Shown here: piece after piece, positions 15,010 through 62,010 of the stretch
Position numbering within the stretch: the stretch's first letter is position 1
How the letters are laid out: each line of letters opens with the position of its first letter
Assembly: GCA_034231615.1 (NCBI GenBank)
Contig: CM067316.1
Coordinates: forward strand, 32,614,009-32,678,008
Length of the DNA stretch: 64,000 bases
Source of the DNA: Meghimatium bilineatum
Taxonomy: Eukaryota; Mollusca; Gastropoda; Stylommatophora; Philomycidae
Reading direction: 5' to 3'
The notes under the pieces: generated by a model
Told to the model about the DNA's origin: nothing
What the model saw: the letters and a program-made list of their open reading frames with translations, nothing else
Database searches by the model: none
Made by a program: the position numbers and the translations under genes

Positions 15010-15235
15010 TTTTGCTCTCGGCGGACCCAGGTCAACACATAACCAAGATTCTAAAAGTAGCTTCCAGTGGTGCATACTAGAAAGGGAAAGACAGCTGGTC
15101 TTTTTCTCTTTCTATTTAACATCTTTAAATTCATATCGTGGTTGTGAAGGAAGTTGATGGAATGAGAATTACCTGCAATGGGACAAGCAATATCTCTGAG
15201 ACCTCTACACCCGTTACTGTCGACACACAGTAACG
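15010..15235 (+). mobile_element. Short SINE-like family B, eroded copy
   Basis: GGCGGACCCAGG...ATAACCAAGAT...AAAAGTA matches the leading strand of the 240-bp segment shared with 40005-40255, 54868-55085 and the ends of the two 1.33-kb elements. The second half (GCAATATCTCTGAGACCTCTAC) matches the 40-kb copy in reverse complement. Confidence 0.65.
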
Positions 15236-15239
15236 TAAT

Positions 15240-16020
15240 GAATCTATACATTCCGTCTCGGTCACCCAAGAATGCAGACACATTGGAGGGTCGGCCAATG
15301 CCAATGTCCCTATGTGGGTAGATCATAAGATATGGTTATCCTATGAGTACACATTGAACCTGGACAAAGCAACAAGTGCTAGACGGCAGAGTTGTGTACG
15401 AGAATGGATATAGTGACGACGAAGCTATATTTATACATATGTACATATTCAGAGAATGGTATAAATGGGAGAGACTAGAAGTGATGGGAGAAATTGCTCC
15501 CTCTCAGGAAAGATCAGAAGAACGCGTAATCCAATCAAAACTGAGCTTATACATTTTTAGATGGCTAACGGAATGACTAGCAGACATTATATGGGAATGC
15601 ATCAAGTACTGTGACGCTTGTTCCTAATCAAGAATCAAGTGACAACAAAGCTTCAACTGTACAGCACGAGAGCAACTATCCGAGGTGCTCAAGCTCGAGA
15701 ACACATGGTTTTGAATCATGATTTTGGTATTGGTTACGCCAACTTGAACATGCACTCCTAGGTACGAAAAAAAACCAACTTTGAATACAGCTCCCAATTG
15801 CATACAGTAGGAGGGGTTTTGAACAGATAACGTGGAGCTATCGGGGAGCTGACCAATTTATACTTTAGTCAGTCTGATTATAATACTGTATAAATTCGCT
15901 CGTGTACTGAGAAAATAATTCTTGGAATTGCAAGTGAATAAAGATAAGGAAAACTTGCTAGTCAGATCTTACATGAAATATATTCAATGCGGCCTCCGGA
16001 CGCAAATCATTTGCACAATG
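15240..16020. other. No recognisable feature
   Basis: No gene or repeat family assigned. Confidence 0.4.
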
Positions 16021-39709: not shown

Positions 39710-39890
39710 GATCTTCTTCTTCTTCTGCGTTCAGCATGTGGTCATACTATACCGTCAGACCTGTCATCAAGACGAAGTCCACTGTCTTCTCCAGGTCAGA
39801 GCGGCTGCCCTATAGCTTTTGCCTCAAGTCTGTATCCTCTGGCCAGGTCTGCTGTCTTTGCTCTTTTGTATGTTGGAGAAGTTTTATAAC
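39710..39890 (-). pseudogene. LINE 3'-terminal fragment
   Basis: Minus strand ends CATGCTGAACGCAGAAGAAG, with upstream codons resembling LEKTVDFVL and DRSDG. The GAACGCAGAAGAAGAA end is shared with SINE family A. Confidence 0.4.
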
Positions 39891-40004
39891 ACTTTCTATA
39901 AAAAATAACTATTAAAGGAAATAAAACTCCAGGGCCTTGCCGTGCTGGGCGGCAGTTAGGCGACACCAATCAAAATACATTTGCATTTTCTGCTGTACAA
40001 GACT

Positions 40005-40255
40005 CAGTGCACAGATGCTGTTGGGTGCGTTGTCGTAGAGGTCTCGGAGATATTGCTTGTCTCTGTGCGGACAATTCTCATTTCATCCATATCTTCCACA
40101 TCCACAGACACGATCACAAAAGTGTTAGCCAGGAATACAGCAAGAACAGCTGTATTTCTGTTTCCAGGGAGTACTACGAGGGGGTACTTTTAGGATCGTG
40201 GTTATCTGCTAACCCTTGGTCCACACGAGAACAACGTGAGACCCTTTGCATCCAC
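40005..40255 (-). mobile_element. Short SINE-like family B
   Basis: In plus-strand order: GTAGAGGTCTCGGAGATATT, CACGATCACAAAAGTGTTAG, ACAGCTGTATTTCTGTTTCC, GTTATCTGCTAACCCTTGGT and GACCCTTTGCATCCA. The right end matches the terminal TTTGCACCCC of the 1.33-kb elements, so the element reads on the minus strand. No ORF is conserved between copies. Confidence 0.75.
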
Positions 40256-43190: not shown

Positions 43191-44590
43191 ATACTTATAT
43201 AACACTATCTCTCTTGTTTTCTCTCACTCTCTCCATACTTATATAACACTATCTCTCTTGTTTTCTCTCACTCTCTCCATACTTATATAACACTATCTCT
43301 CTTGTTTTCTCTCGCTCTCTCCATACTTATATAACACTATCTCTCTTGTTTTCTCTCTCGCTCTCTCCATACTTATATAACACTATCTCTCTTGTTCTCT
43401 CTCGCTCTCTCCATACTTATATAACACTATCTCTCTTGTTTTCTCTCGCTCTCTCCATACTTATATAACACTATCTCTCTTGTTTTCTCTCACTCTCTCC
43501 ATACTTATATAACACTATCTCTCTTGTTCTCTCTCCCTCTCTCCATACTTATATAACACTATCTCTCTTGTGTTTTTTCTCTCCCTCTCTCCATACTTAT
43601 ATAACACTATCTCTCTTGTGTTATCTCTCTCGCTCTCTCCATACTTATATAACACTATCTCTCTTGTTTTCTCTCATTCTCTCCATACTTATATAACACT
43701 ATCTCTCTTGTTCTCTCTCCCTCTCTCCATACTTATATAACACTATCTCTCTTGTGTTTTTTCTCTCCCTCTCTCCATACTTATATAACACCATCTCTCT
43801 TGTGTTTTCTCTCTCGCTCTCTCCATACTTATATAACACTATCTCTCTTGTTTTCTCTCTCCTCTCTCCATACTTATATAACACTATCTCTCTTGTTTTT
43901 TCTCTCGCTCTCTCCATACTTATATAACACTATCTCTCTTGTTTTCTCTCTCCCTCTCTCCATACTTATATAACACTATCTCTCTTGTGTTTTTTCTCTC
44001 CCTCTCTCCATACTTATATAACACTATCTCTCTTGTGTTATCTCTCTCGCTCTCTCCATACTTATATAACACTATCTCTCTTGTTTTCTCTCATTCTCTC
44101 CATACTTATATAACACTATCTCTCTTGTTCTCTCTCCCTCTCTCCATACTTATATAACACTATCTCTCTTGTGTTTTTTCTCTCGCTCTCTCCATACTTA
44201 TATAACACTATCTCTATTATTTTCTCTCTCCCTCTCTCCATACTTATATAACACTATCTCTCTTGTTTTTTCTCTCGCTCTCTCCATACTTATATAACAC
44301 TATCTCTCTTGTTTTCTCTCTCCCTCTCTCCATACTTATATAATACTCTCTCTATCTCTCTCTTATTTTTTCTCTCGCTCTCTCCATACTTATATAACAC
44401 TATCTCATTATTTTCTCTCTCTCTCTCTCCATACTTATATAACATTATCTCTCTTGTTTTTTCACTCGCTCACTCCATACTTATATAACACTATCTCTCT
44501 TGTTTTCTCTCTCCCTCTCTCCATACTTATATAACACTATCTCTCTCGTGTTTTCTCTCTCCCTCTCTCCATACTTATATTGATACACCT
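43191..44590. repeat. 46-52 bp pyrimidine-rich minisatellite, about 29 units
   Basis: Unit CTCCATACTTATATAACACT, ATCTCTCTTGTTTTCTCTC, with a CT-rich linker of variable length. Every unit carries TATATAA. The linker length varies because of CT slippage. Confidence 0.97.
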
Positions 44591-44647
44591 TTATAACATA
44601 TTTTGTTTTGTTACTACGCCATACATTATCTAATGTTTACTATTTAA

Positions 44648-44905
44648 CGCAGTGGTTAGCGCACTGATTTTGTATATTAGTTGTCCAAGGTTCATTCCCC
44701 GGAAGAGGCGAAATGGTTTTAAGATCGCAGCCTCTCCCTGGGAGAGCAAGCCTTAATTGGGTACCGTGAAGTTATTACGGGTAATCCGTGAAGTAAATAC
44801 TGTGAGCGAGAGGAGATGGCTACCGCCCTCATGAAACAGGGTCACTGAAATGTGAGATTGCTAACATTTAAAACCCCTACGGCATTAAAAATTGTTAACT
44901 TTACT
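44648..44905 (+). mobile_element. tRNA-type SINE
   Basis: Box A-like CAGTGGTTAGCGCACTG and box B-like AGGTTCATTCCCC about 35 bases later, then a body with GGGAGAGCAAGCC and ATTACGGGTAATCCGTGAAG and a 3' CGGCATTAAAAATTG. A free tRNA is unlikely: no 7-bp acceptor stem closes it. Confidence 0.65.
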
Positions 44906-44984
44906 TGACTTTACTGTTACACACGGAATAAAATACTCTAGTGTTTACTATTACGCATCGCACAAATTATCCAATTTTTACTAA

Positions 44985-45800
44985 GACACCCAGACAGATG
45001 GAGAGAAGATGGGCACCGCTGGCTAAACCTTTTGTCCACTTACAGTGGATAATCGCCCACAGAAAATACAGCATACAGAAGACACTACTTTGGTTACAAC
45101 ACGTCTACATCGATTGGAGGTCGCCCTATTGCAACTTGCGTTTAGCTGATGATATTGATCTTATAGCTTGTTCAGAACAATAATTGCAATAGTTAAAAGC
45201 AAAGTTGGAAAAAGTTACTAGCTAATGTACAGAACGGAAATAAAAAAAGAAAAGAGAAAGATCTTAGTTAACAGCTTGAGACACAGAAGAACAAACCAAC
45301 ATCATGACGAATACTTGGATACAAATAGAGGAGACGAATACTTTCCAATACCTAAATCCACCATATGCAGCGATGGAAAATGCAAAGCAGAATTAAAAAT
45401 AAGGATGGAGATGCCCTTAGCTTATATGTCAAGGCTAACTTTGATTTGAAAAATCAGTATCAATGTTGGAGTGAAAATCAAACTGTATAAGTGCTGGTGC
45501 TTTCTGTGAGAGTTGGACACTCATTGCGGACATGAAGAGACGTTTACAGGGTTTCGAGTACAAATGCTACAGACCAACTCTACGAATTTTCTATAGAGAA
45601 TATAAGACAAATTTGTACGTTAAGAAATAATATACAGATGGTTTCAGGTGTACAATAACCATTGCTTAGTAAAACTACGTTTTGGCAAGACAAGATTTTT
45701 CCTCACTCATCCGCTTCGTTGAATATAGCATTAACTGGATGACTCTGTGTGGTACCTCTACGACCCTGGCGGGTTACGGGTTTATAGATACATAGATGCC
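44985..45800 (+). pseudogene. Degraded LINE, RT core to 3' end
   Basis: Plus-strand landmarks in order: YSIQKTLLWLQHVYI and CNLRLADDIDLIACS (YADD-type box), KILVNSLRHR, then pieces of CGHEETFTGFRVQMLQTNST, which correspond to a Trp-rich thumb. It ends with GGTACCTCTACGACC at about 45750, followed by GGGTTACGGGTTTATAGATAC, the shared 3' end of this family. Same family as 47525-48118. Many stops. Confidence 0.75.
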
Positions 45801-45957
45801 ACCCAGCATAAATAATCTAATTTTTAAAATTACACCTTGACATAAACATTCTGTTTACTTTTACACCCAACATAAATTATCTCATATTTACTCTAATATT
45901 CTCTTACATTCTCTAAACCCGACATATAACATATCTAATGTTTATTATTGCATACAT

Positions 45958-46430
45958 CAGGGGTCGGCAACCTTTTGCTACCTGTGTGCCAACTTAAGGT
46001 TTAAAATTATTCAGAGTGCAAACATCACATATAATTTTATACAAGTCGAGGCCAGTATTCTTATTTTACCATATATTTTATTTTTATATTTTAATTAATT
46101 AATATATAGTGATATTCAATAATATGTAAACAACATTAAAAGAAATAGAGTTTCTTGAAAGATTAAAAAAATCCCTTTTATATTATCAATGGGAGCCTTG
46201 TCCTTGCATGGTCTTGGCCAGTTGCTCAATATCGACAACATACTTTGTCACTTTGAGTTTGACACAACTTTCTGAATGTTCAGGCGTTAGGTGAGTGCCG
46301 AAATGAGCGAGGAAATCCCGCTAATCGATTTATAATCAACTTTAGACAGGGAGCTCTAAGAGTCTGCGTGCCATTTGAAATTTCTTGGCGTGCCAAGTGT
46401 GGCACGCGTGCCATAGGTTGCCGACCGCTG
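45958..46430. mobile_element. Non-autonomous hAT element, complete, 473 bp
   Basis: Ends CAGGGGTCGGCAACCT and AGGTTGCCGACCGCTG are inverted repeats with one central mismatch. The 8 bp GCATACAT stand on both sides (45950-45957 and 46431-46438), the target duplication expected for hAT transposons. On the minus strand inside, AHFGTHLTPEHSESCVKLKV resembles the C-terminal dimerisation end of hAT transposases, so it looks like an internal deletion derivative. It sits within a unit of the exploded minisatellite. Confidence 0.9.
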
Positions 46431-46499
46431 GCATACATCATTCTATAATGTTGTATATTATACCTGCATACATTCTCTAATCGTTTCTATTGTTGACGC

Positions 46500-46690
46500 T
46501 TATCATGTGCAGGAAATGGCTATTCAACTATTGTTGATTTTTGACGTGCCACTGACACATCCAGTCGTATATACAGTCCATTAGCGATGGTTGGTGTTCG
46601 AACCACCTAGTTCTACTAATTGCGTTTGCAAGGCAAGATCACTATGAATTGTGCTACCGCTCTGAAGTTGTCGTATAATCTATACCAGGC
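46500..46690 (-). mobile_element. Possible tRNA-type SINE
   Basis: Minus-strand GAGCGGTAGCACAATTC (box A-like) precedes GGTGGTTCGAACACCAACC (box B-like) by about 45 bases. Limits are uncertain. Confidence 0.4.
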
Positions 46691-46984
46691 ATACATTCTT
46701 TACATGGTATTTATCAGTCCCACTATTTAATGTCCTCATCAGGACAGACCAGACCCCAGGTCATTCCCTCAGTCCCAACCAGGGCAACACCCAGGTCATT
46801 TGACCGCCAGATACGCCCCGATATAGCCAAAGAAATTTATTGGAAAGACAAATCCAGTACTAAACAAACAACAAATTGTATCTATCATACCTGACATAAA
46901 TTATATAATGTTATCTATTGTAATGATAATGGTATCTATAATGATAATGATATATTATAGGAGATAAAAGTATAAAATGTTAAT

Positions 46985-47130
46985 GGTATAAGATATAAGG
47001 GTATAAGATATAATGGTATAAGATATAATGGTATAAGATATAATGGTATAAGATATAATGGTATACGATATAATGGTATAAGATATAATGGTATAAGATA
47101 TAATGGTATAAGATATAATTGTATAAGATA
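46985..47130. repeat. 15-bp tandem repeat
   Basis: TATAATGGTATAAGA, about nine units. Confidence 0.95.
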
Positions 47131-47524
47131 TGCTATAAGATAATGAGATAATAGTATAAGAGAGAATGGTATATATTTTAGCTATAATGGTATCTATCGC
47201 ACATTACATAAATTCTATAATGTTGTCTATTATAAATTGCACACATTCTCGAACGGTGTCTATGATACTTATGTAAAACACAAACTTGATAAGATTTACA
47301 TTGAGCATACTGACTATCAGACTATAGGATATTAGTACGAAAACAGACAAACAACAGTATACAAGGCATTTTCTAGGTTTTTACCTTGTTTTATTTCAAG
47401 AAAATGCAAGACACACAGTGAACAAACACTGACAACAGCACATATAATGGTACTATCTCAAACGCATTAGACGGCAGGCATTGAACAATAGAGAAGGTCA
47501 GGGTAATAACAAAGTCATGTATAA

Positions 47525-48118
47525 ATAATGTGTTTATAAATATTGACATTGGCGAATTTTTCAAGACGGAAATAGGAGTACGCAGGGTTGCATACTTTCC
47601 CCAATACTTTTTAACGTATCTTGAATATACAATGCAGAAAGCATTACACGATCTCCAGACATCAATAACTGTTGGCGGTAGAGCACATTGTAAATTGCGC
47701 TTTGCCGATGATATCGATATCTTGGCTGTTCCGAATCTGAACTCCAGGAACTCACCTGAAAGTTGGAAAACATCAGACGGAAATATGACATGGAAATTAT
47801 TACGATTAAAAAAAAGATATTGGTAACTATTAAAACCAATCAAAATCCCACGAATCAGTTTATCACAAACTTGAGGAAGTTACTATCTTAAAATATCCCT
47901 GGTCCCAAATATGTGACGATGTCAACTCGGAAAATGAGATTAAGCTAAGACTTGAGATGTCGATGGATGTCATGACAAGGTTGAATACGATATGAAAATG
48001 TAAACTAAGTATTACAGAAGAGATCAATCTATTCAGATCGCTGGTGTTAAGTATAATTACATACGGATGTGAATGTTGGACACTAATTTCAGAAACCTAA
48101 TGAAGAGTTCAGGCTTTT
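47525..48118 (+). pseudogene. LINE RT fragment, part 1 (interrupted by 48119-49446)
   Basis: The plus strand reads GEFFKTEIGVRRVAYFPQYF (GVRQGC region), LEYTMQKALHDLQTSITVGG, CKLRFADDIDILAV (YADD-type box), then in other frames KLSITEEINLFRSLVLSIIT, YGCECWTLISET and RVQAF. The coding order is standard for this LINE family (compare 44985-45800). It stops at the codons for VQAF, which are repeated as the target duplication of the 1.33-kb element, and resumes as VQAFKNKR at 49447. Confidence 0.85.
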
Positions 48119-49446
48119 GTTTGTTTTTCGTTCGCTCCATTGTAACCATCACGGATATCCGTGCGATTTCCGCCGGGAGCGTGATTACGTTGTGCCACCG
48201 TTATGCGCCTTGTAGGCCTAGCACATCCGATTTCGGCATGCCTTGACAATTCGGGTGGGCTACCCTTAGCCTGTGACAGCCTCTTTATCTGTCTCCAGGC
48301 ACGCGTAGTGGAGACTCTTCGCCCAGACGATTTTCTTGCTCTTAGTCTGACTCAAACGAGGTGTTCCACTGTCTATGAACTTGCCTCGTGTAATTGGACG
48401 TGCTGTGCCTGTGCCCATTGGGTACTGAACCGTTTCTCATCCGTGAGCCTGGTTCCTTAAGGGGAAGAACTCAACAGAGGAGTTGGACCCTGGCTCTTTC
48501 GCCCTCTTAGCCGAGGTGTCATTCACCGACATCGTGTACCCCTTGTCCAAGTTCGAGTCTCACACCACGCGTTCGAGAGCAAGGCGTTCTCGAGCTGAGC
48601 GTCCTTGTCCCAATAGCGCCTGAGCCCATCAGGTACTGAACCCTTTCTCTCTTCAAGTGTATTTCCGGTGTAGGAAAACCTGACAGTAGAGCTGGGCCAG
48701 GGCTAAATCGTTGTCCCTTTTGTGCCTGAGCGAATCGAGTACGGAACCCTTTCTCTCTGCAGGTGTACTTCCGGTATAGGAAACCTTGACAGTAGAGTTG
48801 GGCTAGGACTACCATCGTTGTCCCTGTCTTGCCTAAGCCCATTGGGTACAGAACCCTTTCTCTTCGCGAGCATATTTCCGGTTTAGGAAGGCTCGACATT
48901 AGAGTTGGGTTAGGTCTTCTTGCTTTACCAAACGCCAGTGGATGGGTCTGGGTCTCTGCCTGTAAGGAACTCAGGTAACTAGAAGCCCGTCTCGAGCTGA
49001 CGGAGCTTGTAGCTCCCCCTTTCCTAGGGACTTTTCACTTTCTATTTTCAGTTCGCGCTGCCCTCTAGCGCTGTTCTGCCCTTTCATAGTTTCATTGTAC
49101 TCGGTATGAAATCTATGTCTCTCGCCATGTATCTACCTTTACGTGCATTTTACATTGGCCGCCCCTCCAATGTTCGGACTGGACTGACTAGCTTCACTGT
49201 ATGTCGACAGTGTCGCTATATGTGGTGATGCTGGTGGTGTCGGAGATATGTCTGTCCGTGTGCAGGCAAATCTCTTTCCATCTGCTACCTCCACATTTTC
49301 GGACACGATCCCCAAATGATTTGGCCAGAATCAGCTCGAGCTGCTGTATTTCTGTTTCCAGGGTGCACCGCGTGGAGGTACATTTGGGATCTTGGTTATC
49401 TGCTAACCCTGGGTCCGCCTAGAGCAATGCGTTCCCTTTGCACCCC
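48119..49446 (-). mobile_element. Unclassified 1.33-kb retroelement, copy 1
   Basis: 1328 bp flanked by a perfect 12-bp duplication GTTCAGGCTTTT (48107-48118 and 49447-49458). It shares its full length with 57683-59016. Read on the minus strand it begins GGGGTGCAAAGGGAACG and ends in an A-rich CAAACAAAC-type tail, which fits retrotransposition by a LINE. Relatively GC-rich inside AT-rich DNA. ~107-bp internal repeats start at 48408, 48619, 48725 and 48832 (CCTGAGCCCATCAGGTACTG, then GAACCCTTTCTC). Minus-strand 48519-48899 is open for 126 codons across these repeats, but copy 2 does not clearly conserve it. Its leading ~240 bp occurs alone as family B. Confidence 0.85.
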
Positions 49447-49560
49447 GTTCAGGCTTTTAAAAACAAGAGAACAGGCACATTTATTTGTTAGGCAGGAAAT
49501 AAGCAAAGTTGCAGGTTAGCAATCACTTTTAGCAGTAATGAAACGGCGTAAACTTGTTTA
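49447..49560 (+). pseudogene. LINE RT fragment, part 2
   Basis: VQAFKNKRTG continues the ORF interrupted at 48118. Only a few further codons match before the frame decays. Confidence 0.6.
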
Positions 49561-49819
49561 ATGTGGACATAGGCCTATAACAAGATGGAACTCATTTTCT
49601 ACAATTATTTTTCAAGCAAAAGTCGAGAAGGTGAAGAAGGAGAGAAAATTCTGGATTCATAACGTTAAGGAATAGCCTGGGCGTGCTTATTGTACACTCT
49701 TTCGAATGAGTTTAGGATAGAGTTGGTTGTAGTGCTTTTTGTACGGATGTATTTAGTGTGGCATTCTTGACATTTTATATGTCATATTATTATATTATAT
49801 ACTGGGTAAATTATCCCCG

Positions 49820-50320
49820 TTATTGGAACACAAAATGCTACCAATGTCAACAAAGAAACATCTTATCTTCATTCCAACCCTGTGCTACCAATGTCAAACA
49901 TGGTCCTTAACAACAAAACATATGAGACAACTAGTTACAACAGAGATGAGATGTCTGAGAAAAGCCACAGGAGTGACCAGAAGACACAGAATTAGAAACG
50001 ATGTCTTAAGAGAAAGAGTGGGTGTCATATCAATTCTACAATACATACAAAACCAACAGATACAATGGTTTGGTCATCTGGAAAGATTGCTGTATGATTC
50101 ATTAATTTATGTTTTTATAAATATATATAAAGCATACATGAAGAGAGGAGAAGCAGAAAGAAGAGCCAGGGGTAGATCTAGAATACGCTGGATCGACAAC
50201 ATCAAAGAGACATTACAGGAACACCGAATAATATTATCTGAAGCTGCCAGAAAAGCGAGAACAAGAACAGTGTATCTCCCTCGACACCCGTGAAGGGTAA
50301 AAGAGGAAGGCAAGAAGAAG
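49820..50320 (+). pseudogene. RTE-like LINE C-terminal fragment, well preserved
   Basis: The frame 49823-50293 reads IFIPTLCYQCQTWSLTTKHM, RQLVTTEMRCLRKATGVTRR, HRIRNDVLRERVGVISILQY, QNQQIQWFGHLERLLYD, then RRARGRSRIRWIDNIKETLQ. All landmarks of this LINE C-terminus are in one frame. It ends with GAGGAAGGCAAGAAGAAGAA at about 50315, a purine-rich tail. RT and endonuclease are missing; 5'-truncated. Confidence 0.85.
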
Positions 50321-50429
50321 AAGATTATTATATTATACCGCACATAAATTCTCTAATGTTGTCTATTACATCTGAAATAAAATGTAATGTCTATTATATC
50401 TGACATAAATTTTCTAATTTTTAAGGTAT

Positions 50430-51325
50430 AATTGATGTCAGGTATATCCCCAATCTACACCTCTGTCTATGTCACATTCCCCAATCTACACCTCTGTCTA
50501 TGTCACACAGAACCGGTCTGTCACATTCCCCAAAGCCACCTTCATCTTCGAATAGTGTTTCAAATGGATATCCCACAACGGCATCTATGCAAGTGTTGCA
50601 CACCGATATATAGAGATGAGGCTGGAAGGAGGCTTGAAGACATATTCTGCGAACACTTGTACAGCATCAAAATCCATTTGGGTACTCCTGTTGACGACCA
50701 CTTCAATGGCACGGGCTTTCCGGAATCCATGACATTCAGGTGGCGGCTATTAAGGTGTGTTTCTCAGACGACCGAGATCATCACGTGCTTCAAAACTGCT
50801 ATGTATATATATATATATAGTATGTATGTATGTATGTAAGTATGTATGTATGTATATAAGTATGTATGTATGTATATAAGTATGTATGTATGTGTGTGTG
50901 TGTGCGTGTGTGTGCGTGTGTGTATGTATGTATGTATGAATTTGTCACGCTTAAACATTTCGGGATCAGTGAGTGCCAATCTTATGGATGAGTGACATCA
51001 TGTTCTTCCGTCATGACTGCATCTGTCTCGTCTCAGAGTTATATGTTTCAGGGGTATATGTTTCAGAGGTATATGTTTCAGAGGTATATGTTTTATATAT
51101 TTCCTGTTTGTATTATTTCAACTCTGACCTAGCTTCAACCGTACCTGGCTATCTCCACATCTTGCTGTGCCATGTGAACGTCATAGTACCTTTCAAGCTC
51201 GTCGTTCTGTGTTATTTAGTGTTTATAAAGGCCTTTTGGTAGAAACGGCGATTTCTGTGTGTTATTATGTGTGTTTCTAGTAATTAAGAAAGCTTCATTA
51301 CCCTGCTCCAGGTTTATTTATACAT
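50430..51325 (+). mobile_element. PLE family 2, second copy (degraded)
   Basis: The plus strand 50432-50839 reads CKCCTPIYRDEAGRRLEDIF, CEHLYSIKIHLGTPVDDHFN, GTG, then a shifted segment. YRDEAGRR stands for YIGETGRR, so the motif is damaged. A long TA/TATG microsatellite (50802-50937) follows the codons for MYIY and precedes FVTLKHFGISE, the expected C-terminus. The 3' region (51115-51320) matches 6040-6300. Dead element. Confidence 0.75.
51221..51256 (+). ncRNA. Hammerhead-like core of PLE 2, second copy
   Basis: TTTATAAAGGCCTTTTGGTA then GAAACGGCGATTTC. GAAAC is intact, with stem II GGCC/GGT and a T loop; first box degraded. Confidence 0.4.
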
Positions 51326-51829
51326 ATTCTAATATTGTCTACTTCAAGTGACATCAATTATTTAACGATGTCTAGTGTACCAGGCATACATTATCTAATG
51401 TTGTATACTTGGCACAAATGATCAAATGTTGTCTACTAAAATTGATAGACATTCTATAATGCCCGTATTACAAATACCGCAAACCCTCTAATGGTGTCTA
51501 TGTATTACACCAGACATAAATCATATATGTCTAATATTGCTATATAACTAATAGTGTCTATTACACCTGGAATAAATTTACTAATGTCGTCTGACATAAC
51601 ATCTGACATAAATTATCTAATTTTGCCTGTTACACTTGCCATCAATTCTCTAATTTTGCCTATTATACACGTTATAAATTATGTAATGATGTCTGTTCCA
51701 TTCATATTTAATGTTATCTGTTATCAATCAATAAATCAATCAAATTCTCCACAACTCTCTGCCCCTGTATTGGTGATGAGTTGTGACATATTTTAGTGAT
51801 ACAGTAACAACACAACAAAATATTTGGTT

Positions 51830-52260
51830 TTTTGTCTTCTGTCTCTTCTCCCCTTGATCTTTCCAGTGGTTACTAAATGTTCAAGATGTGCTTTTCTCAT
51901 CACATGCCTTAAAATAGTGTCTGTCAGCTATAATATTTTTGCTGTTTTATGATTTTTGCTATAATTTACATGTTTATACCAGTTTCTCTGAATATTTCTA
52001 AGTTAGTTCGCTTAACTGTCCATGCCCATCATTCTTCTAAAAAACAACATCACAGTTGCCTCCAAATTATCTCGAGTTTCTTGTGTTTACCGTCTATGCT
52101 TCGCCTCCATGTAGAAAGATTGGCTCAATATAACATCCAAGCACTCGATCTCGCGTATGCAGTGATACTACTCCATTGCATAGAATGTTTATCTTTTTTG
52201 AAATGCTGATTTGACCTTTGCTGTACTGCTCTTGATCTTATATGTAGCACCGTCTATCTG
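51830..52260 (-). pseudogene. LINE C-terminal fragment
   Basis: Minus-strand pieces: IRDRVLGCYIEPIFLHGGEA (for LxxxxEPxLLYGCEAWT), then RHVMRKAHLEHLVTTGKIKG and RRDRRQK. Same type as 18480-19240. A short (CAA)n lies beside it at 52286. Confidence 0.7.
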
Positions 52261-52639
52261 TTTTTAAAATGGTGCCAAGATACTTCAACAACAACAACAA
52301 CCTAGACAAGCACTACATTCTTGCATATCCATATTAAACAACAAATCTCTCTTTCGTTCTCTTTTGTTTCCTTGCACATTTATTTCTGCATAATACCGTT
52401 CTCGTTCTCTCATTACACATCACTCTCACTGTATCTTTATATGATGATTCCCCCTCTCTCCTTTCTGGCTAGTATCGATCGGTTTAGATTCTAAGTCTGG
52501 AACGTTGATATCACAAGGTCGAAGGTCAACTTAGAGGTTTCCTATTTGGAAACATTTATGTCGATACTGTGTGATCATATGCTAGAAAGCAGACACTGAA
52601 ATCACACCAGAGAACTGACGACATGTGCTTACAATTACA

Positions 52640-52865
52640 TAGTGTAGCTTGGTTGTGCGAGTTATGATCTGTGTGCTAGAGTTGATGTGCGAATTATTAT
52701 GTGTGCTAGAGTTGATGTGCGAATTATTATGTGTGCTAGAGTTGATGTGTGCATTATTATCTGTGTGCTAGAGTTGATGTGCGAATTATTATGTGTGCTA
52801 GAGTTGATGTGCGCATTAGTATCTGTGTGCTAGAGTTGATGTGCGAATTGTTATGTGTGTGCTAG
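52640..52865. repeat. 30-32 bp minisatellite, about 7 units
   Basis: AGAGTTGATGTGCGAATTAT, TATGTGTGCT. A variant with ATCTGTGTGCT is two bases longer. Confidence 0.93.
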
Positions 52866-52904
52866 AGTTGTGCCAATGATAGTTGTGCAAGATGATAGAG
52901 TTGT

Positions 52905-53345
52905 TCTGCTAACTATTAAGAGTTCACTAGCGGTGTTGTGTATAACGATTACCAGTTTACTAGCGTTGTTATACTATTACCAGTTTACTAGCTTGTTGTG
53001 CTGTCACCAGTTTACTAGCGTTATTGTGAAATTAGCAGTATACTAGCTTGTTGTGATGTCACCAGTTTACTAGCATTATTGTTCTATTATCAGTTTACTA
53101 GCTTGTTTTGCTAACTGTCACCAGTTCAGTAGCGTTATTGTGCTAACTATTACCAATTTACTAGCGGTGTTGTGCTAACTATTAGAGTTTTACTAGCGTT
53201 GTTGTGCTAACTATTACCAATTTACTAGTGTTGCTATACTAACTATTACCATTTTACTAGTGTTGCTATACTAACTATTACCATTTTACTAGTGTTGCTA
53301 TACTAACTATTACCAGTTTACTATCGTTGTTATACTAAGTATTTA
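52905..53345. repeat. ~29-bp degenerate minisatellite
   Basis: GTTGTGCTAACTATTACCAG, TTTACTAGC with unit-length changes; the most regular part is 53200-53330. Confidence 0.9.
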
Positions 53346-53739
53346 AATACTATAAGTATTATTTTTTATAACTGTGTTGTGTTAATGTATCTGTTTCCTA
53401 GTTTATGTGTGTGCTAACGTATCCGTTACCTAGGTTTGCTGTGTTAAATTATTTGCTACTAGTTTCGATCCGCACAATTTACAAACAGTAGAGGTCTTGT
53501 CTGCAATAAATAGTGTTATCCAGAGTTTTCTGAGACTGAAAACTAACTCTCAGCTATGTACAACATATTGAAATGGAAAAGAAAGTCTTCTTAGAGGAGG
53601 TAAATACAGAAAAATATAGAGTACTTACATAGGAAACAGGTAATGAAGTCTTACTGAACGATGACTAACACACTATCACTGTCGGATGCTCACGTGAAAT
53701 AATAATAATACACACAAGACTACACCTGATATAATCATA

Positions 53740-54800
53740 CAAATAATACACAGGATATAATCGACATTTTGACAAAAAGGCTTTTATCAAGAAAAGCCCA
53801 TAACATCAACAGACGACGAGTGGAAATGAAAACGACACACACACGTGTTTGAACGAAATGTGGGTGTGAGATGCCGCAAAGATAGGAACAGGAAGTACAT
53901 AAAATCGTAAATATATGTGAAACGAAGCGAACAAACAGATGGCGGAACAAAATGAATAAACACAAAGACCACACCAACCAAGAACTAGACAAAAGAGTGA
54001 TCGAAATTGAGTGAAAATGGCTTGACGGTACCGAACTCAAAGATAAGACGATTTTCTAGAGCGTGCCTAGATCTATCATCGGTGGTAGACAATCCCGTCT
54101 GATGGCAGTAACCTGAATATCAAGAAGACCACGGTGGTCATCACTGTTGATGTATGTGGCAACCAGAGTAGGTGTACTGTGCTTGATGGCATGAAGATTG
54201 TTACAAAAGCGGTCGCTCAATCTTAAGCCAGGTTCATCGATATACTGCGTTTACATATGATCACGTAAATTACATTACGGGATTCAAATGCAACGGTCTC
54301 ATCGATGGTGAAAGTGACCTTATGAAATAAAACGGAGCGCATCTGAACCACATAAGGACATGTGTAGAAACGACTGTGTATTGAACGAACTGTACCGAAA
54401 TTGTCAGGAACACTAGAACTAATGTGGCTGTGAACCAAGATGTCCTTAAGCTTTTTTTCGCGCCTATTGGCAATCAGAGGCAAGTCCTGGAAAGCGGCAC
54501 GTGTGTTCAGAGCAGACTGTAGAAAGGAATAATGAGTAAGCAGGGTGCGCCGGGCAGTGGAGTTATGGGGATGATAGGTAAGGACAAGTTTAAATCTTTC
54601 CGATGAGGAGGAAGAACGTTTTGAATTAATCAAGGTATCGATGGGAGATAACTGGCGTACACGGAGTCAAGCCAATGAAAGGATGCTGTCGGGCAACGAG
54701 CGTCTACGAAATAACTCAATCACCCCAGAGGACTTGTCGAGAAAGTCGTCGTCATCACTACATAAGCGACGTTATGTACATTATGTAGGTCTCTGGGAGT
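53740..54800 (-). mobile_element. PLE family 3, degraded (linker plus GIY-YIG)
   Basis: Minus-strand 54223-54640 reads SSSERFKLVLTYHPHN, PLIANRREKKLKDILVHSHI, then TCPYV and ESRNVIYVIICKR. This is the PLE region between RT and nuclease. After a frameshift, 53960-54230 gives QYIDEPGLRLSDRFCNNLHA, LLDIQVTAIRR and ENRLIFEFGT-like codons, so YIGET is damaged. A hammerhead-like core lies downstream (53757-53797). Upstream RT thumb codons fade near 54800. Not functional. Confidence 0.8.
53757..53797 (-). ncRNA. Hammerhead-like core of PLE 3
   Basis: Minus strand: CTTGATAAAAGCCTTTTTGTC then AAAATGTCGAT. Both boxes degraded. Confidence 0.35.
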
Positions 54801-54867
54801 ATGGCAGAGAGTTGAGACAAGCGGGAGGAAGAATGAGAAGAAGTGTAGAGCAGAAACCAGAAGGATG

Positions 54868-55085
54868 TAATGGCGTAGAGGTGTCTGAGATATTTCGTGT
54901 CTCTCTGCATGCAATTCTCATGCCACCTACAACAGTCATATCACGAATACGAGCCTAAAAGTGTTAGCCAGGAATACAGCAAAAGCAGCTGTATTTCTGT
55001 TTCCAGGGTGCACCACGAGGAGGTACTTTTAAGATATTGGTTATCTTCCAACCCTGGGTCCACAGGAGAGCAGTAAGAGACCCTG
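54868..55085 (-). mobile_element. Short SINE-like family B
   Basis: GCGTAGAGGTGTCTGAGATA, AAAAGTGTTAGCCAGGAATA, CAGCTGTATTTCTGTTTCC, GGGTGCACCACGAGGAGGTA and GACCCTGTGCACTCC in the same order as 40005-40255. Confidence 0.75.
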
Positions 55086-55089
55086 TGCA

Positions 55090-56945
55090 CTCCAAAACCA
55101 GCCTCTAATTATATATATAATTTGTTTAACTGATGCGACTATCCCGATAAATTAAAGAAGTCAAATAGGTGCACATAAAATCCGCACTATGTCTAATGGG
55201 AGAAACGGTTTGAATATCGCGGATACTAGCATTCAACAAATTTCTCTGTTCTTTCAGACTGTAATGGTGTTGAGACTGACCTTAAAACATCCCATTAATG
55301 ACTGATTCATTTCATTTATGACCAGAAAGCAAATACAACGAAAGCAAACAAATAATCAATGTCAATAATATTGGCAAATTCTCTGTAGACATTGCCTTTA
55401 CGGAAAAGTGAAAATTTCATAACTGAAGTTTATAGAGCAGTGAAATCTGGCATGTAAACAAAGCTATGTCCATGTGTAACGTTGTACTTGTATTATACAA
55501 ACATTATCTGGAATCTGCTGGTAACAGTAGTTACGTGTTCTATACTGACACGATTACATTGTCCAGAGAATCTGTAGTACTGTAGAAGAGATGAAACTAT
55601 TTCATTGTGTGCGCATTCTGCATGCATCTTCATAGACTGTGTAGTAGACAGGTAACTCAACAAATTGTCTTTAAACCTTATGAGACATGTTTTTGAGAGA
55701 TTGGCTTCAAAGCGCCATTACAACATAAGATTGCTGAAACACTTTATTTTCCGCCAAATTTGTAGCAGTGGTTTTTTTTTTCCAAGGGGGATGTCAAATT
55801 AGACAAAAATAAACAGATACAATTTGAGTTCGAGGTAAAGACACTAGAGTTCATTTGAATGAGAGTTCGAATCTCACGAGAGCTGATCTGAATGAGGCGC
55901 TACTTAATTCGTGCTTATTGAATAATTAAAAAATATTGTTTTGGCATCTGATGCTGTCCAAATTTAAACAATCTCATATAAGAGCTCATATTACTGGCAT
56001 AGCACATCCAACTTTGGTTGCTCTCCTACAGGAGATACTTCATTGATACATATATTTTACATCAACCACAGTTTGGAAGTGGTGAAAATGTCGTTCAAAC
56101 TGTGAGTAATTACATCAAGTTATGATGCTGAGAGAGGCTGCATGGTGTGTGTCTAGATGAGCATTATCAGAACAATGCACATGTGTTGCATTAGCGAGCA
56201 GTGACTTGAGGCAGTGGAGAGATCGAAGTTGGCATGTGGCACATTAATTTTCGCTCCTGGTTGCATGAGTTCTCAAGCATAAAGAAGCGCATCGGATGGC
56301 TTACAATGCTACTGTGTCCAGCGGTAGAGCAATGAATCGTGCGGGAACTTTTAACTTCTTATTTGCAACACCACAGACAAATGCAATTAATGAGGATGAT
56401 GATTCCGTTACTAATGTCCAGAATAAAAGAACTAGGCTTGAAATGTAGAATTTCCAGAAATGAATGCTTGTCGACCAACAAAGAACTGGCACTGTCAGTC
56501 ATCGTATAATGGTGCTGATCGGATCAATGCTTTGACGTGTTCGAAGTTCAATGATGACATACAAGACTAACACTGCGTGCTTGTGTGTATCTGAACATTC
56601 AAACAGACAAACAATGATCTATATAAAATAATATTGGGATGAACAAAGTAAACAGAATGAATATGTGCAGTCGTCATGGCTTGACAGGGAGGAGGAGGTT
56701 ATAAAACATGTCTCTGCATTGATGGTCATGGAGAAGAGTTGCAATGTAAGGCCTTCAAGTTTACAGATACCATTGACGTGATTTTGCCAATAACATTTCG
56801 ATCACTATATCAATAACTAATTGAAAAACGTGTAAGTTCCTAACGTTACGTTCCTGACTGACAAGCACACCCCGTGCAGACTAGTAGTTTCTCAGTCCCA
56901 ACTACACGCACATGCCGAAGTGAATGCATACTGAAAATTACCATC
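55090..56945. other. No gene recognised
   Basis: GAGAGTTCGAATCTCACG at about 55862 looks like a box B, without a convincing box A. A plus-strand open stretch near 56300-56450 (GRAMNRAGTFNFLFATPQ) is unrecognised. Confidence 0.35.
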
Positions 56946-56954
56946 GCTGAATGT

Positions 56955-57250
56955 TCGTGCACATAGGCAGCTGACTGTCACGTGAGTGTTCGTACATATA
57001 GGCAGCTGACCGTCACGTGAGTGTTCGTACATATAGACAGCTGACCGTCACGTGAGTATTCGTACATATAGACAGCTGACCGTCACGTGAGTTTTCGTAC
57101 ATATAGACAGCTGACCGTCACGTAAATGGTCGTGTATATAGACAGCTGACCGTCACGTGAGTGTTCGTGCATATAGGCAGCTGACCGACACGTGAGTGTT
57201 CGTGCATATAGACAGCTGGTCGTCACGTGAGTGTTCGTACATGTAATCTG
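56955..57250. repeat. 35-bp minisatellite, about 8 units
   Basis: GTGTTCGTACATATAGACAG, CTGACCGTCACGTGA. Each unit contains TCACGTGA, an 8-bp palindrome with a CACGTG E-box. Confidence 0.95.
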
Positions 57251-57484
57251 CTGACTGGCACATGATTGAATCAGATAATCTTCATTGAATATATCTTTTT
57301 GATCGGTTGATACAGTTCTTAAAAATCAACTCACCCATGTTATGCTAGAGCCCGAACGGCAATAAAGAATAGAATATCTGCAACATGTCACGTATGTTCT
57401 AAGAGACAATTAAGAATGTTTGTCTGCCGTATTGACGATATTAAATAGTTTGAACAAAACTAAAAGATATTATGTAATTAAACG

Positions 57485-57669
57485 TATCATGCGGCGCAGA
57501 TATCGCAATATTGCACACAAGATATAAACCATGACACAATGCACTCGGTTCTCTGGATTTATCGACAACCGAAAGAATGTTCGAGAACAAGCATAGAGTC
57601 TGAAGATTCAGGAAGATGTCTACTCTGAGAAACGCAGAAGATCAGTCCTGTCTACTCTGACAAGCGCAG
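57485..57669 (+). mobile_element. SINE family A, partial
   Basis: GCGGCGCAGATATCGCAATA, TAAACCATGACACAATGCAC and a duplicated end carrying CTACTCTGA and ACGCAGAAGA. It is the target into which copy 2 of the 1.33-kb element inserted. Confidence 0.6.
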
Positions 57670-57682
57670 AAGAAAACAATGT

Positions 57683-59016
57683 TTGTTTGTTTTACGTTCG
57701 CTGCATTGTAATCAGCACGGATATCCGTGCGATTTCCGCCGGGAGTGTGCTTACGTTGTGCCACCGTTATGCGCCTCTTAGGCCTAGCACATCCGATTTC
57801 GGCATGCCTTGACAATTCGGGTGGGCTACCCTAGCCTGTGACAGCCTCCCTATCTATCGCCAGGCACGCGTGTGTGTGGTGACTCATCGCCCAGACGATA
57901 TTTGCTCACGTCTGTCTCGCACGTGGTGTTCCACTGTCTATGAACTTGCCTCGTGTAATTGGACGTACTGTGCCTGTGTCCATTGAGTACTGAACCGTTT
58001 CTCATCCGTGAGCCTAGTTCCTTAAGAGGAAGAACTAAACAGAAGAGTTGGACCCTGGCTCTTTCGCCCTCTTAGCCGAGGTGTCATTCACTGACATCGT
58101 GAACCCCTCGCCCAAGTTCGAGTCTCACACCACGCATTTGAGAGTAAGGCGTTCTCGAGCTGAGCGACCTTGTCCCAATAGCGCCTGAGCCATTCAGGTA
58201 CTGAACCATTTCTCAATGCAAGTGTATTTCCGGTATAGGAAAACCTGACAGTAGAGTTGGGCCAGGGCTAAAATCGTTATCTCTTTTGTGCCTGAGCTCA
58301 TCGGGTACTGAACCCTTTCTCTCTGCAAGTGTATTTCCGGTATAGGAAAGCTTGACAGTAGAGTTGGGCCAGGACTGCCCTCTTTGTCCCTTTTTTACCT
58401 GAGCCTATCGGTTATGGCACCTATTCTCTTTGCGAGCATGTCTCCGGTATAGGAAGACTCGACATTAGAGTTTGGCCAGGTCCTTTTGCTTTGCTAGACG
58501 CTCATTATTGGGAATGGGTCTCTGCCTATAAGGAAATCAAGTAACTAGAAGCTCGTTACGAGCTAAGAGAGCTTGCAGTTCCTATTTCCGTAATCGTTTC
58601 CACTTTCTATTTGCAGTTGGCGCTGCCCTCTAGTGATGTTCTGTCCTTTCATTTTTTCCATTGTACTCAGTATGAAATCTGTCTGTCTTTCGCCATGCAT
58701 CCACCTTTTCATGTTTTTTTCATTGGCACCCCTCCAATGTTCGGACTAAACTAACTAGCTTCACTGTATGTCGACAGTGTCGCTGTATGTGGTGTTGCTG
58801 GTGGTGTCGAATATATTGTCTGTCTTTTAAGCATTCAAAATCTCTTTCCATCTGTTACCTCCACATTCTCGGACACGATCCCCAAATGATTTGGCCAGAA
58901 TCAGCTCGAGCTGCTGCATTTCTGTGTCCAGGGTGCACCGCGAGGAGGTACATTTGGGATCTTTGTTATCTGCTAACCCTGAGTCTGCCGAGAGCAATGC
59001 GTTCCCTTTGCACCCC
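57683..59016 (-). mobile_element. Unclassified 1.33-kb retroelement, copy 2
   Basis: 1334 bp flanked by a perfect 13-bp duplication AAGAAAACAATGT (57670-57682 and 59017-59029). It is alignable with 48119-49446 end to end, diverged by many scattered substitutions. The four internal repeat starts are at 57973, 58183, 58291 and 58398, the same spacing as in copy 1. The plus-strand right end TTTGCACCCC is identical to copy 1. No shared long ORF. Confidence 0.85.
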
Positions 59017-59389
59017 AAGAAAACAATGTGACTGACTTTCTGAGAAAATTCCTATAATGTAGATGATAGTATATAATGCACAAATGATTTTCTATAGTTT
59101 TTTATTTGTATCTATACATCTTTTTATTTGTGTGTTAGGGCGTACATAGTGCGTTGAAATAATTCCTATTGTCTTTGAAACAATGTTTTTATTGTATTCA
59201 ATCCACAAGTCTAGTAGGTTTGCGGACTTTATAGAAGGGTGGGATTGTCTGTGGTGTTTGTTTCCGAATGGATTTATTGAGGTTTGTGTTGGGATTATGC
59301 TCTATTAGCGTATTAGAATGAATAAATTGTTAGGATTAGAGAATACGCTAATAGAGAATATTAGAGAATAAGCTAATCATATCCTGTAA

Positions 59390-59860
59390 TCCCGTAACTC
59401 GCCAGGATCGTAGGAGTACCTCATTGGATGTTTTAACACACATTCCAGCCATTTATATCTTTGCAGATTGTCTATTGTCTTTCCGCAGGTGGTTTGTTAT
59501 CGACTCTTGCCGTTAAGCGTAGTGGTGATTGGAGCTCGAACTTGCGTTCTAAAGCCAGATGTGTGGCCTCGACTGTGATATAACCGTGTCTGTTCAGGAT
59601 GTTCTTGAACGATGCGGATGAGTGAAGAAAAATCTTGTCCTGTCTAGTCTTTGATGTTGTATGACGATGCTTTTCTCTGCCCATCTCTGCTTCTTCCCCC
59701 GTCTACCGTTCTTAGCAAAATTGATATGCTTAGAAATTTGGCGGAATACATGTCTAATCCATACAAGTTTTCGACGTTTCACTATTGAAAGCAATATTTC
59801 TTGTGGACCTGCATACATCTTTATTTATTCCTTAAAGTACACATTTGTCTTATGCTCTGT
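59390..59860 (-). pseudogene. LINE C-terminal fragment with internal insertion
   Basis: The minus strand reads PQEILLSIVKRRKLVWIRHV, FAKNGRRGKKQRW, then DRTRFFF, and at the 3' side CVLKHPMRYSYDPGE. Same family as 22903-23275. 59465-59600 does not fit the LINE and contains AACGCAAGTTCGAGCTCC, so a tRNA-type SINE may have inserted there. Confidence 0.7.
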
Positions 59861-59949
59861 ATAGAATATTTGTAGAATTAATTGAGCTAATAAGTTAATA
59901 GAGAATATTAGAGAATAAGAACAGATCCTTCTGACACATCTGCTATTGA

Positions 59950-60205
59950 TCGATCTGACACGTCTGATTTTTGATTGATAAGAAACATCAGACACGGATC
60001 GATAATGATACATCAGATACTGATCGATATGGTACATCAGATACTGATTGACATGGTACATCAGACACGGATCGATCTGATACATCCAACAATGATAGAT
60101 ATGGTACATCCGATACTGATCGATATGGTACATCAGACAATTATCGATATGGTACATCAGACACTGATCGATCTGATACATCAGACACTGATTGATCTGA
60201 TACAG
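59950..60205. repeat. 24-bp minisatellite, about 10 units
   Basis: GGTACATCAGACACTGATCG plus ATAT. Open on both strands because 24 is divisible by three; not a gene. Confidence 0.93.
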
Positions 60206-60209
60206 TTAA

Positions 60210-60960
60210 TGCGTTGAGTGATCTCGTAAGAGGAATTTTCAAAAGTTTGAATCGTAGTCACTCTTCAAGACTGCGTTAGATTGTTGTAAAGATCGGAACA
60301 GCCTGCAAAGATAAACATATAGATATACGAATAGGCTGATAAATTGTAACTGTCGGTCCATACAATGATGGATTTGTTCAGACAGTGATTTGAGCATATA
60401 TGGACATGTTCCGTGTGCGCTGATGATAACTTGCAGTAATACATCATAACGCAATAAACTTTTAGGATTATATTTAGGATTAGGCGGCATTAGGGGCAGA
60501 ATGCACTATAAGGGATAGGATTTCAGAATAAACTGTTGCTAAATTTGTAAGCATATACTCCTATAATATAACAAGAAATGTATAAATTTGTCCAATAACC
60601 TATGATATTTCAAGGCATGTAAATACATTCAGCTTACTGTGAGCAAAATTGATATTCTTGTTGAATATATTAATTAACAAAGTGTTCTCAATCTTTGTTT
60701 TGTCCTATGTGTATCGATATTTTCAACGGCAACATACTGTTCTGTCAAATACAAAACGTAACTTAAGAGTTACCTTTTGATTTGTCGGTTGCACTTAAAT
60801 AAGCAATTCCGAAGTTGCTAGGTGAAATAAATGCGAATTTAGAACTGAGAAATCAAAATTTGGAAAAATGATTTTTTTAAAGAAAGATATTTCTTGCGTG
60901 ATTCATGAACAATAAGATTTTATGAAATGGGTCAAGTCTTATTTCACTACATTTATTTTT
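60210..60960. other. No gene recognised
   Basis: AT-rich; nothing assigned. Confidence 0.4.
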
Positions 60961-60967
60961 AATAATG

Positions 60968-61010
60968 CATGGGTTCCCAACCAATGGGTCGCGACCCACA
61001 ACAAAGTCGA
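60968..61010 (+). mobile_element. Possible single hAT end
   Basis: CATGGGTTCCCAACCAATGG, then GTCGCGACCCAC resembles the CAGGGGTTCCCAACC ends of hAT families. No matching inverted end or 8-bp duplication found downstream. Confidence 0.3.
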
Positions 61011-61439
61011 GATACTTTCATGATTCTTGTTTTACTAATATTCGTAGTTTATTGTCATGACAATTTGTTTCCATGTCATGCCAGAGAGGTTCTGTCGTGG
61101 TTCAGAACCCGGTATTGCTTCTGCTGCCTGAATGAACTACACAGGCCGAGCAAAATGTCGAATTTTAAAATTGTGTTGTGCAAATATATTAACTAAGTAG
61201 GTTGCATGATGCCATGGTTGCCTAGTACATCTGACTTCAGCACCTGTACTTGCTGTGATCCTGCTCTTTTTACGAGATGTCCGAACAGTCTTAGTTTTCA
61301 GTTTGTGTTAGCTGGACTAAGCCCCCAATCTCCACTTTAAACTTAAAGTATCTCGCATCGATATGTTTACCTGAATAATATAGTCAAGAGGTACTAAGGA
61401 CAATCATTAACAGAAACATAATTTGAAGGCAGTAGTTGG

Positions 61440-61510
61440 GATTTGAACCTAGTCCGTTCAGCTGGCATCTACTCGCCTTGCAACTTGAATCAGCATGTGT
61501 GTCTATTCTA
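61440..61510 (-). mobile_element. Possible tRNA-type SINE head
   Basis: Minus-strand AAGTTGCAAGGCGAGTAG precedes GGTTCAAATCCC. No acceptor stem seen; limits unknown. Confidence 0.3.
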
Positions 61511-61734
61511 ACACATTAAAGAAACGTTGCAATATATCAGTACTAGTCTGTGGAAATAAGTAACAACACTAATTAGATACTATTTAGAACAGTATCGTTC
61601 TAATCAACGATATCAAGACTTGATCCTATACGTCACAGAAAAAGAATACTTAGAGTGTTTCGTACAGACTATCTCACACTTTTTCCTTGACATAATCTAT
61701 GACTGCCTTTTCCACAGATTAGTGCTGATATATT

Positions 61735-62010
61735 ACAACGTTGCTGAGAGACAGGACTGATAAACTTCAGCGTTGCTGAGAGACAGTATGATATAATACA
61801 ATGTTGCTGAGAGAGAGTATGATATAATACAATGTTGCTGAGAGACAGTATGATATAATACAATGTTGCTGAGAGACAGTATGATATAATACAATGTTGC
61901 TGAGAGACAGTATGATATAATACAATGTTGCTGAGAGAGAGTATGATATATTACAACGTTGCAGAGAAACATTTCTAATATATAACGACATTGCTGAGAG
62001 AGGAAGTGTT
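61735..62010. repeat. 31-bp minisatellite, about 8 units
   Basis: ACAATGTTGCTGAGAGACAG, TATGATATAAT. Confidence 0.95.

Follow-up and report, generated by a model that had tools for sequence, protein, structure and literature searches.

The window, by which we mean the whole stretch of 64,000 nucleotides of Meghimatium bilineatum DNA that was analysed, contains two full-length, related elements of about 1.33 kb, called copy 1 and copy 2, both on the minus strand (Table 1). The two are 87.5% identical over 1341 columns in BLASTN, and their alignment stops at the element ends, except for 3 nt into one flank. A preliminary description, made from the letters alone, had stated that the copies end at the same bases and that each is framed by its own perfect duplication. 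Direct reading shows both statements to be right, the first to the base, and the duplications, of 12 bp for copy 1 and 13 bp for copy 2, are unlike each other. On its sense strand, copy 1 starts with GGGGTGCAAAGGG and ends with ...GAACGAAAAACAAAC.

Table 1. Positions of the elements, their parts and their older relatives in the window.
Feature	Position	Strand	Basis
Copy 1, full-length young-family element	48119..49446	minus (sense strand; 5' end = 49446)	direct reading, BLASTN, genome search, fetched loci
Copy 2, full-length relative of copy 1	57683..59016	minus	direct reading, BLASTN
Copy 1 target-site duplication, first unit GTTCAGGCTTTT	48107..48118		direct reading
Copy 1 target-site duplication, second unit GTTCAGGCTTTT	49447..49458		direct reading
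Copy 2 target-site duplication, first unit AAGAAAACAATGT	57670..57682		direct reading
Copy 2 target-site duplication, second unit AAGAAAACAATGT	59017..59029		direct reading
Predicted HDV-like ribozyme, copy 1	49311..49446	minus	Rfam scan, descriptor, covariation test
Predicted HDV-like ribozyme, copy 2	58881..59016	minus	Rfam scan, descriptor, covariation test
Internal tandem repeat, copy 1, 107-bp unit x 2.8	48618..48914	minus	
Internal tandem repeat, copy 2, 107-bp unit x 2.8	58183..58480	minus	
Copy 1 3' tail AAAAACAAAC; (CAAA)n at other loci	48119..48128	minus	
41-nt motif near 3' end, 80% identical to central part of 286-bp SINE-like repeat	48204..48244 (element nt 1203-1243)	minus	
o54, older copy of 5' head only; predicted ribozyme fold, P2 compensatory; sequence beyond the head unrelated	54863..55093	minus	
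o40, decayed 5' head, 164 bp upstream of LINE 3' end (39712-39876)	40040..40253	minus	
o15, decayed distant relative, 63% identical to element nt 20-389	15012..15389	plus	

The GC content is 0.49-0.54 within copy 1 and 0.45-0.52 within copy 2; the 500-base windows of 44000-62000 lying clear of both copies range over 0.28-0.46, so the elements are, as had been noted, richer in GC than their surroundings. The middle of the element is GC-rich and noncoding and carries the 107-bp repeats. A 171-aa frame of copy 1 gives no Pfam match; it is intact in 27 of 30 young loci fetched from the genome, broken in L006, L013 and L017, and missing from copy 2, with which copy 1 has no frame in common. Of 500 shuffled versions of the element, 25 have a frame that reaches this length, which is borderline. 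A protein-coding element is thus unsupported, and the earlier statement that there is no conserved open reading frame holds. Copy 1 had also been described as splitting a LINE coding sequence at VQAF. This is correct in so far as VQAF stands on both sides, being the duplication read twice, but the LINE coding sequence itself rests on a motif recognised by eye (ITYGCECWTL), and a tblastn search with an RTE protein (E <= 0.001) found nothing at that place.

Two further features of the window can be mentioned. Positions 1-942 and 944-1885 are perfect inverted copies of each other, 942 bp long and 1 nt apart, and represent either a palindrome of very recent date or an artefact of assembly; the arm that was tested has a weak GIY-YIG match, just under the Pfam cut-off. 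At 25817-29839, a 30-bp minisatellite of about 134 copies lies in one open frame of 1355 codons, which adjoins a LINE frame with reverse transcriptase (RT) and RNase H (29822-31747, minus strand).

The genome searched was the 1.61-Gb assembly of 32 contigs, window included. With copy 1 as the query, scoring covered the best 40 out of 5,018 first-look candidates, and among the matches listed 40 of 41, copy 1 counted, are full-length at 99-100% identity, the other one being a 54-bp fragment. The element is hence multi-copy, as proposed. Thirty loci, copy 1 among them, were fetched, and all of them start with GGGGTGCAAAGGG, a common 5' end that is partly a matter of selection, because the loci were picked by full-length similarity. 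They differ from their majority sequence at 2-12 of 1324 positions. A target-site duplication is present in 28 of the 30: 24 exact ones and three with one mismatch were found by a script that lets the border shift by one base, and the remaining one is that of L006 (see below). L003 and L021 have none. Duplications lying exactly at the element borders are not chance.

The preliminary description had itself named a longer transposon or a segmental duplication as the case that would speak against it. This case does not hold, since the flanks differ between loci and independent loci carry their own duplications; only L009-L012 represent one insertion that was multiplied together with its surroundings, the four copies lying at G000 C12:35304146-35314817 in a recent local tandem duplication. 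The retroelement nature of both copies of the window is well supported, and the family to which they belong was recently active.

The target motif was derived from 20 clean sites, leaving out L003, L006, L021, the duplicates L010-L012 and the ambiguous L015, L024, L028 and L030. There is a T at position -2 in 18 and an A at position +1 in 17 of these sites, and the duplications are 10-13 bp long (one base of slack). The tails of the fetched loci are (CAAA)n of variable length, in line with the A-rich CAAAC-type end described before. These T-rich|A sites and duplications point to a LINE-type nick with target-primed reverse transcription, and the element thus has the marks of a non-LTR retroelement, namely duplications at variable sites, an endonuclease-type site and a short-repeat 3' tail. 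A special case is L006, where at 1501-3366 a full-length element has two extra 3' ends of 254 bp arrayed in tandem behind it, with this entire multimer inside a single exact 11-bp duplication, ATAATGAATAT, whose second unit stands behind the extra 3' ends. Since the full copy and the two extra ends share one duplication, L006 is a single insertion event, and it is best explained by template jumping of the reverse transcriptase. The LINE-driven retrotransposition suggested earlier is in this way supported by the duplications, the target sites, the tail and the multimer.

It is important to point out that the 5' end of the element coincides with a predicted fold. The first 136 nt fit best to drz-agam-1 of Rfam (RF01787), and a nested double pseudoknot of the HDV type, P1-P4 with P1.1, can be drawn in which every helix fits in both copies. 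In copy 1, P1 pairs GGGGUGC (49446-49440) with GCACCCU (49366-49360), that is, element nt 1-7 with nt 81-87; it has seven pairs, with a G.U at the predicted cleavage position, and in both copies of the window P1 starts exactly at nt 1. P2 is formed by 49388-49380 and 49319-49311 (strands CCCAAAUG and CAUUUGGG), P3 by 49379-49377 and 49369-49367 (ACC/GGU), and P1.1 is CC/GG, with the GG at 49359-49358. L3 is UCCACGC, J1/2 between P1 and P2 has 51 nt, and J4/2 is UGGCCAAA (49327-49320) with the core GGCCAAA. J4/2 with its predicted catalytic C reads GGC-NAA in 11 of 13 heads compared, the deviants being the old copies L067 (GGA) and L074 (AGT). Active HDV-like ribozymes with large J1/2 domains are described in PMC4908430. 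The element RNA thus appears, on comparison with the Rfam family and its fold, to carry a self-cutting HDV-like ribozyme at its 5' front, which would explain the same starting base in the full-length copies examined.

The possibility has to be considered that this match is fortuitous and that the fixed 5' end is an ordinary promoter start. The drz-agam-1 scores are 24.2 bits for copy 1 (E 0.035, the sole match in its permissive scan), 24.5 bits for copy 2 (E 0.0063), 21.8 bits for the older relative L068 (E 0.032) and 17.3 bits for the o54 head at 54863-55093 (E 0.39), these E-values applying to chosen stretches of 261-1351 bases and being roughly 47 to 245 times larger for the whole window. 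All four heads, at 17.3-24.5 bits, are under the curated Rfam cut-off of 37, and the whole window gives no match at the gathering level, which would fit a chance resemblance. L068 also has a weak second match to an HDV family (RF02682, E 2.3) and two unrelated ones (E 0.53 and 2.7). For hammerheads there is no Rfam match in the window at the gathering level, nor in the element at E <= 5. Against chance, three diverged copies hit the same Rfam family at E <= 0.035 in the short scans. Moreover, the Rfam structure line of drz-agam-1 has no P1, so P1 constitutes an extra test, and it lands exactly on nt 1. When both strands of the window are searched with a descriptor composed of P1, P2, P3, P1.1 and J4/2, nothing but the two copies is matched, each at nt 1 and again one base further in. 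With the same parts but without the anchor at nt 1, there are two matches in three shuffled 64-kb strands, so the rarity of the unanchored descriptor alone proves little; anchored at nt 1, the descriptor, which was written after seeing the head, is met by none of 200,000 shuffled heads. Together with the covariation of P2 discussed below, this makes a chance match unlikely.

Another option is that the element is a very long pol III SINE, whose 5' precision would come from the pol III start without any ribozyme. It would be non-autonomous with a LINE-type tail, it has the 41-nt motif in common with a SINE-like repeat, it contains only one TTTT (nt 769), and there are A-box-like matches of 10/11 (nt 2, 21, 120) as well as a B-box-like match of 9/11 (nt 136). 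However, the box consensus is degenerate and is matched equally well or better elsewhere in the element (A box 10/11 at nt 1185-1299, B box 10/11 at nt 958), there is no tRNA in the window, and no 7SL, 5S or tRNA match to Rfam was found in window or element. A length of 1.33 kb is also long for a pol III transcript, and we regard this explanation as improbable.

The head of the element has a history of its own. Its first ~210 nt recur at about 75% identity in the window at 40040-40253 and 54880-55093. In a genome search with the o54 head, the best 40 of 4,980 candidates were scored, and the matches listed are the query itself and 39 others at 85-88%, ending at query position 236-238. In the eight older heads that were fetched (L067-L074), the 5' anchor is present in all eight, with 0-3 mismatches in 13, at the point where the upstream similarity ends. 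Two older relatives, L068+L075 and L069+L076, are 82% identical over 1403 bp and end with ...TTCTCAAACAA, and no frame longer than 112 aa exists within this aligned stretch; one of these two (C15) has a decayed duplication, AATGTGGAGACTACA / AATGCGGAGGCTGCA (by eye). There are thus older relatives of ~1.36 kb, likewise noncoding, with the same head. For o40, the combination of head and LINE 3' end at 39712-40253 is either a chimera or a nested insertion. The LINE 3' end at 39712-39876 is itself young, being 97-99% identical to 39 other scored matches over that part.

Covariation was evaluated over 12 heads; L041 was dropped for a deletion across P3, and o15 and the near-identical young loci were left aside. 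In P2, 99 of 108 cells are paired, compared with a shuffle mean of 93.0, and only 1 of 2000 shuffles reaches 99. When the partners are slid, the pairing falls to 0.33-0.69 from 0.92 in the true register, and exchanges of C-G to U-A and of U-A to A-U are seen between families. On the basis of this pairing and these exchanges, P2 seems to be conserved by structure across the families, albeit with double changes that stem from one lineage (c1, c2). In P1, 74 of 84 cells are paired, a value that 324 of 2000 shuffles reach, and this helix thus has no covariation beyond shuffles; P3 pairs in 35 of 36 cells, which all 2000 shuffles reach, and gives no information.

We have also considered the case where a LINE made the copies by retrocopying the RNA of a long noncoding gene of the host, since they are 5'-complete, noncoding and have duplications. 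However, the tail is (CAAA)n and not poly(A), there is no AATAAA or ATTAAA in L003, and the layered older families, with the same head on different bodies, behave like a transposon lineage. This scenario is very improbable.

The 3' end bears on the question of which LINE moves the element. An abundant 286-bp SINE-like repeat, present in the window at 23554-23836 with a duplication AGTTGGTTGAT at 23548-23558 and 23839-23849, and also in L008, L025 and L023, ends with GAACGCAGAAGAAGAAG. Considered as a further ribozyme carrier, it gave no Rfam match at E <= 5. A young LINE ends with CTGAACGCAGAAGAAGAAG in all seven loci fetched (L060-L066); by Pfam, L060 contains RNase H and L064 reverse transcriptase, and we read this LINE as putatively of the ingi/I-type clade. 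An old relative of the element in L019, which aligns to it from nt 435 only, ends with GAGCGAACGAAGAAGAAG and nearly matches the LINE and SINE-like end GAACGCAGAAGAAG. The 3' end of the element itself bears a resemblance to those of the LINE and the SINE-like repeat. The LINE with RT and RNase H and the end GAACGCAGAAGAAG is favoured as the partner because its end resembles those of the SINE-like repeat and of the L019 relative, and it is the best present candidate from these sequence comparisons.

Two RTE elements found no support in this role. The one topping the PF00078 search, with a 1026-aa frame, has a (GAT)n tail, and the stretch around its frame start (L040 800-1500) gave no ribozyme; for the second, with the tail GGAAGGAAAGAAGAAG, L045-L051 show no similarity to the element at E <= 1. 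The first of these is a very young RTE LINE (L040-L043), its 1026-aa frame being open in all four fetched copies, with the tail TGATGATGATGA and 99% identity over 3.2-3.4 kb. The drz-agam-1/drz-Agam-2 ribozymes sit in RTE elements.

The element could alternatively have originated as an internally deleted derivative of one LINE, with ribozyme and 3' end from a single parent and the middle filled later, an origin that is compatible with movement by a ribozyme and a LINE. The R2 SIDEs and NARTc are so described in PMC3414825 and PMC4035085, and the end GAACGCAGAAGAAG in seven of seven loci of the young RT and RNase H LINE, in the SINE-like repeat and, nearly, in the L019 relative would agree with it. 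What speaks against it is that the head is absent from L060-L066; the matches obtained there, of 52 bp (E 0.022) and of 23 bp (E 0.43), are both weak, and these are LINE copies without a proven complete 5' end. A LINE sharing both ends with the element was not found in this comparison, which covered such copies. Furthermore, the nearest pair of head and RT is 728 kb apart among the matches listed (best 40 head matches, 112 RT matches), and the older ~1.36-kb relatives are noncoding too. We consider such an origin quite possible, though we do not lean towards it.

Taken as a whole, the precise 5' end, the differing duplications, the T-rich|A sites, the (CAAA)n tail, the near-identical copies and the fold that starts at nt 1 point to a ~1.33-kb ribozyme-headed, non-autonomous non-LTR retroelement that is moved by a LINE and needs no protein of its own, and we believe that this is probably what it is. 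The element would be transcribed with flanking DNA, perhaps within a longer host transcript, and the HDV-like ribozyme would cut directly upstream of nt 1, yielding an RNA with a fixed 5' end. The reverse transcriptase/endonuclease of the LINE, acting in trans, would then recognise the 3' end of the element and nick a T-rich|A site, and target-primed reverse transcription of the element RNA would leave a duplication of about 10-13 bp. Template jumping by the enzyme would give the L006 multimer.

One can speculate further that the element belongs to a long-lived animal lineage, a 'ribozyme SINE', of noncoding, promoterless units of ~1.3-1.4 kb that would sit within any host transcript, be released by the ribozyme and be copied by an unrelated LINE. 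Across the young family, older type A and the L019 type, bodies and tails differ but the head is retained, and on this reading it would be the ribozyme, and not the LINE, that defines the lineage. We put this forward only tentatively, as somewhat doubtful.

Many retroelements face the problem of making an exact 5' RNA end from an arbitrary insertion site. If the proposal is correct, a dispersed, noncoding, self-cutting element provides a clean natural test, with many contexts, one ribozyme and one 3' end, and a direct route to asking which LINE serves it. HDV-like ribozymes would then extend beyond LINEs and their rRNA-bound derivatives to an abundant, free-living, non-autonomous animal family.

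The preliminary description knew of no family with this layout. This stands in the sense that no dispersed, HDV-ribozyme-headed 1.3-kb animal element appears among the papers listed by full-text searches of PMC, which were the scope of the search. It does not stand for the layout as such, since a 5' HDV-like ribozyme (predicted here), no open reading frame and a LINE-type 3' end form a known combination, which was missed because the ribozyme match is not visible from the letters alone. According to PMC3414825, the precise 5' end of R2 is made by a ribozyme and R2 makes template jumps, to be compared with the L006 multimer. The R2/R1 SIDEs described there share with our element the 5' HDV-like ribozyme, in our case predicted, the lack of an open reading frame, the LINE 3' end and, as we propose for ours, the movement in trans; they are, however, located in rRNA genes, rare and plainly derived from R2/R1, whereas the present element is dispersed, its loose first-look candidates number in the thousands, and no parent LINE was traced for it. 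In trypanosomatids, as described in PMC4035085, HDV-like ribozymes head L1Tc, NARTc and SIDER, some being active in vitro and some not. NARTc, RIME and SIDER are, like our element, short and non-autonomous with an HDV-like head (Pr77, active in some and inactive in others; predicted in our case), and the LINEs to which they are akin possess endonuclease, RT and RNase H. These are protist elements with a compact 77-nt head, while ours is an animal element with a predicted head of ~136 nt and a J1/2 of 51 nt.

The mosquito drz-agam-1/drz-Agam-2 ribozymes (RF01787; PMC4908430) and the predicted head are alike in the sequences of P3, L3, P1.1 and J4/2, and drz-Agam-2-1 has a large J1/2 domain as well, as reported in the same paper; the score of our element is below the Rfam cut-off, and its head is a prediction. 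Retrozymes of animals and plants are also non-autonomous retroelements with a self-cleaving ribozyme, as predicted here, but theirs is a hammerhead according to PMC7229834 and PMC4918200, whereas our element has a predicted HDV-like fold, is linear and has a LINE-type tail. The ribozyme-headed, non-autonomous non-LTR element is thus a kind already known, and what is new, as far as the searched papers go, is a young animal family of 1.3-kb elements that is dispersed and has an old lineage as its background.
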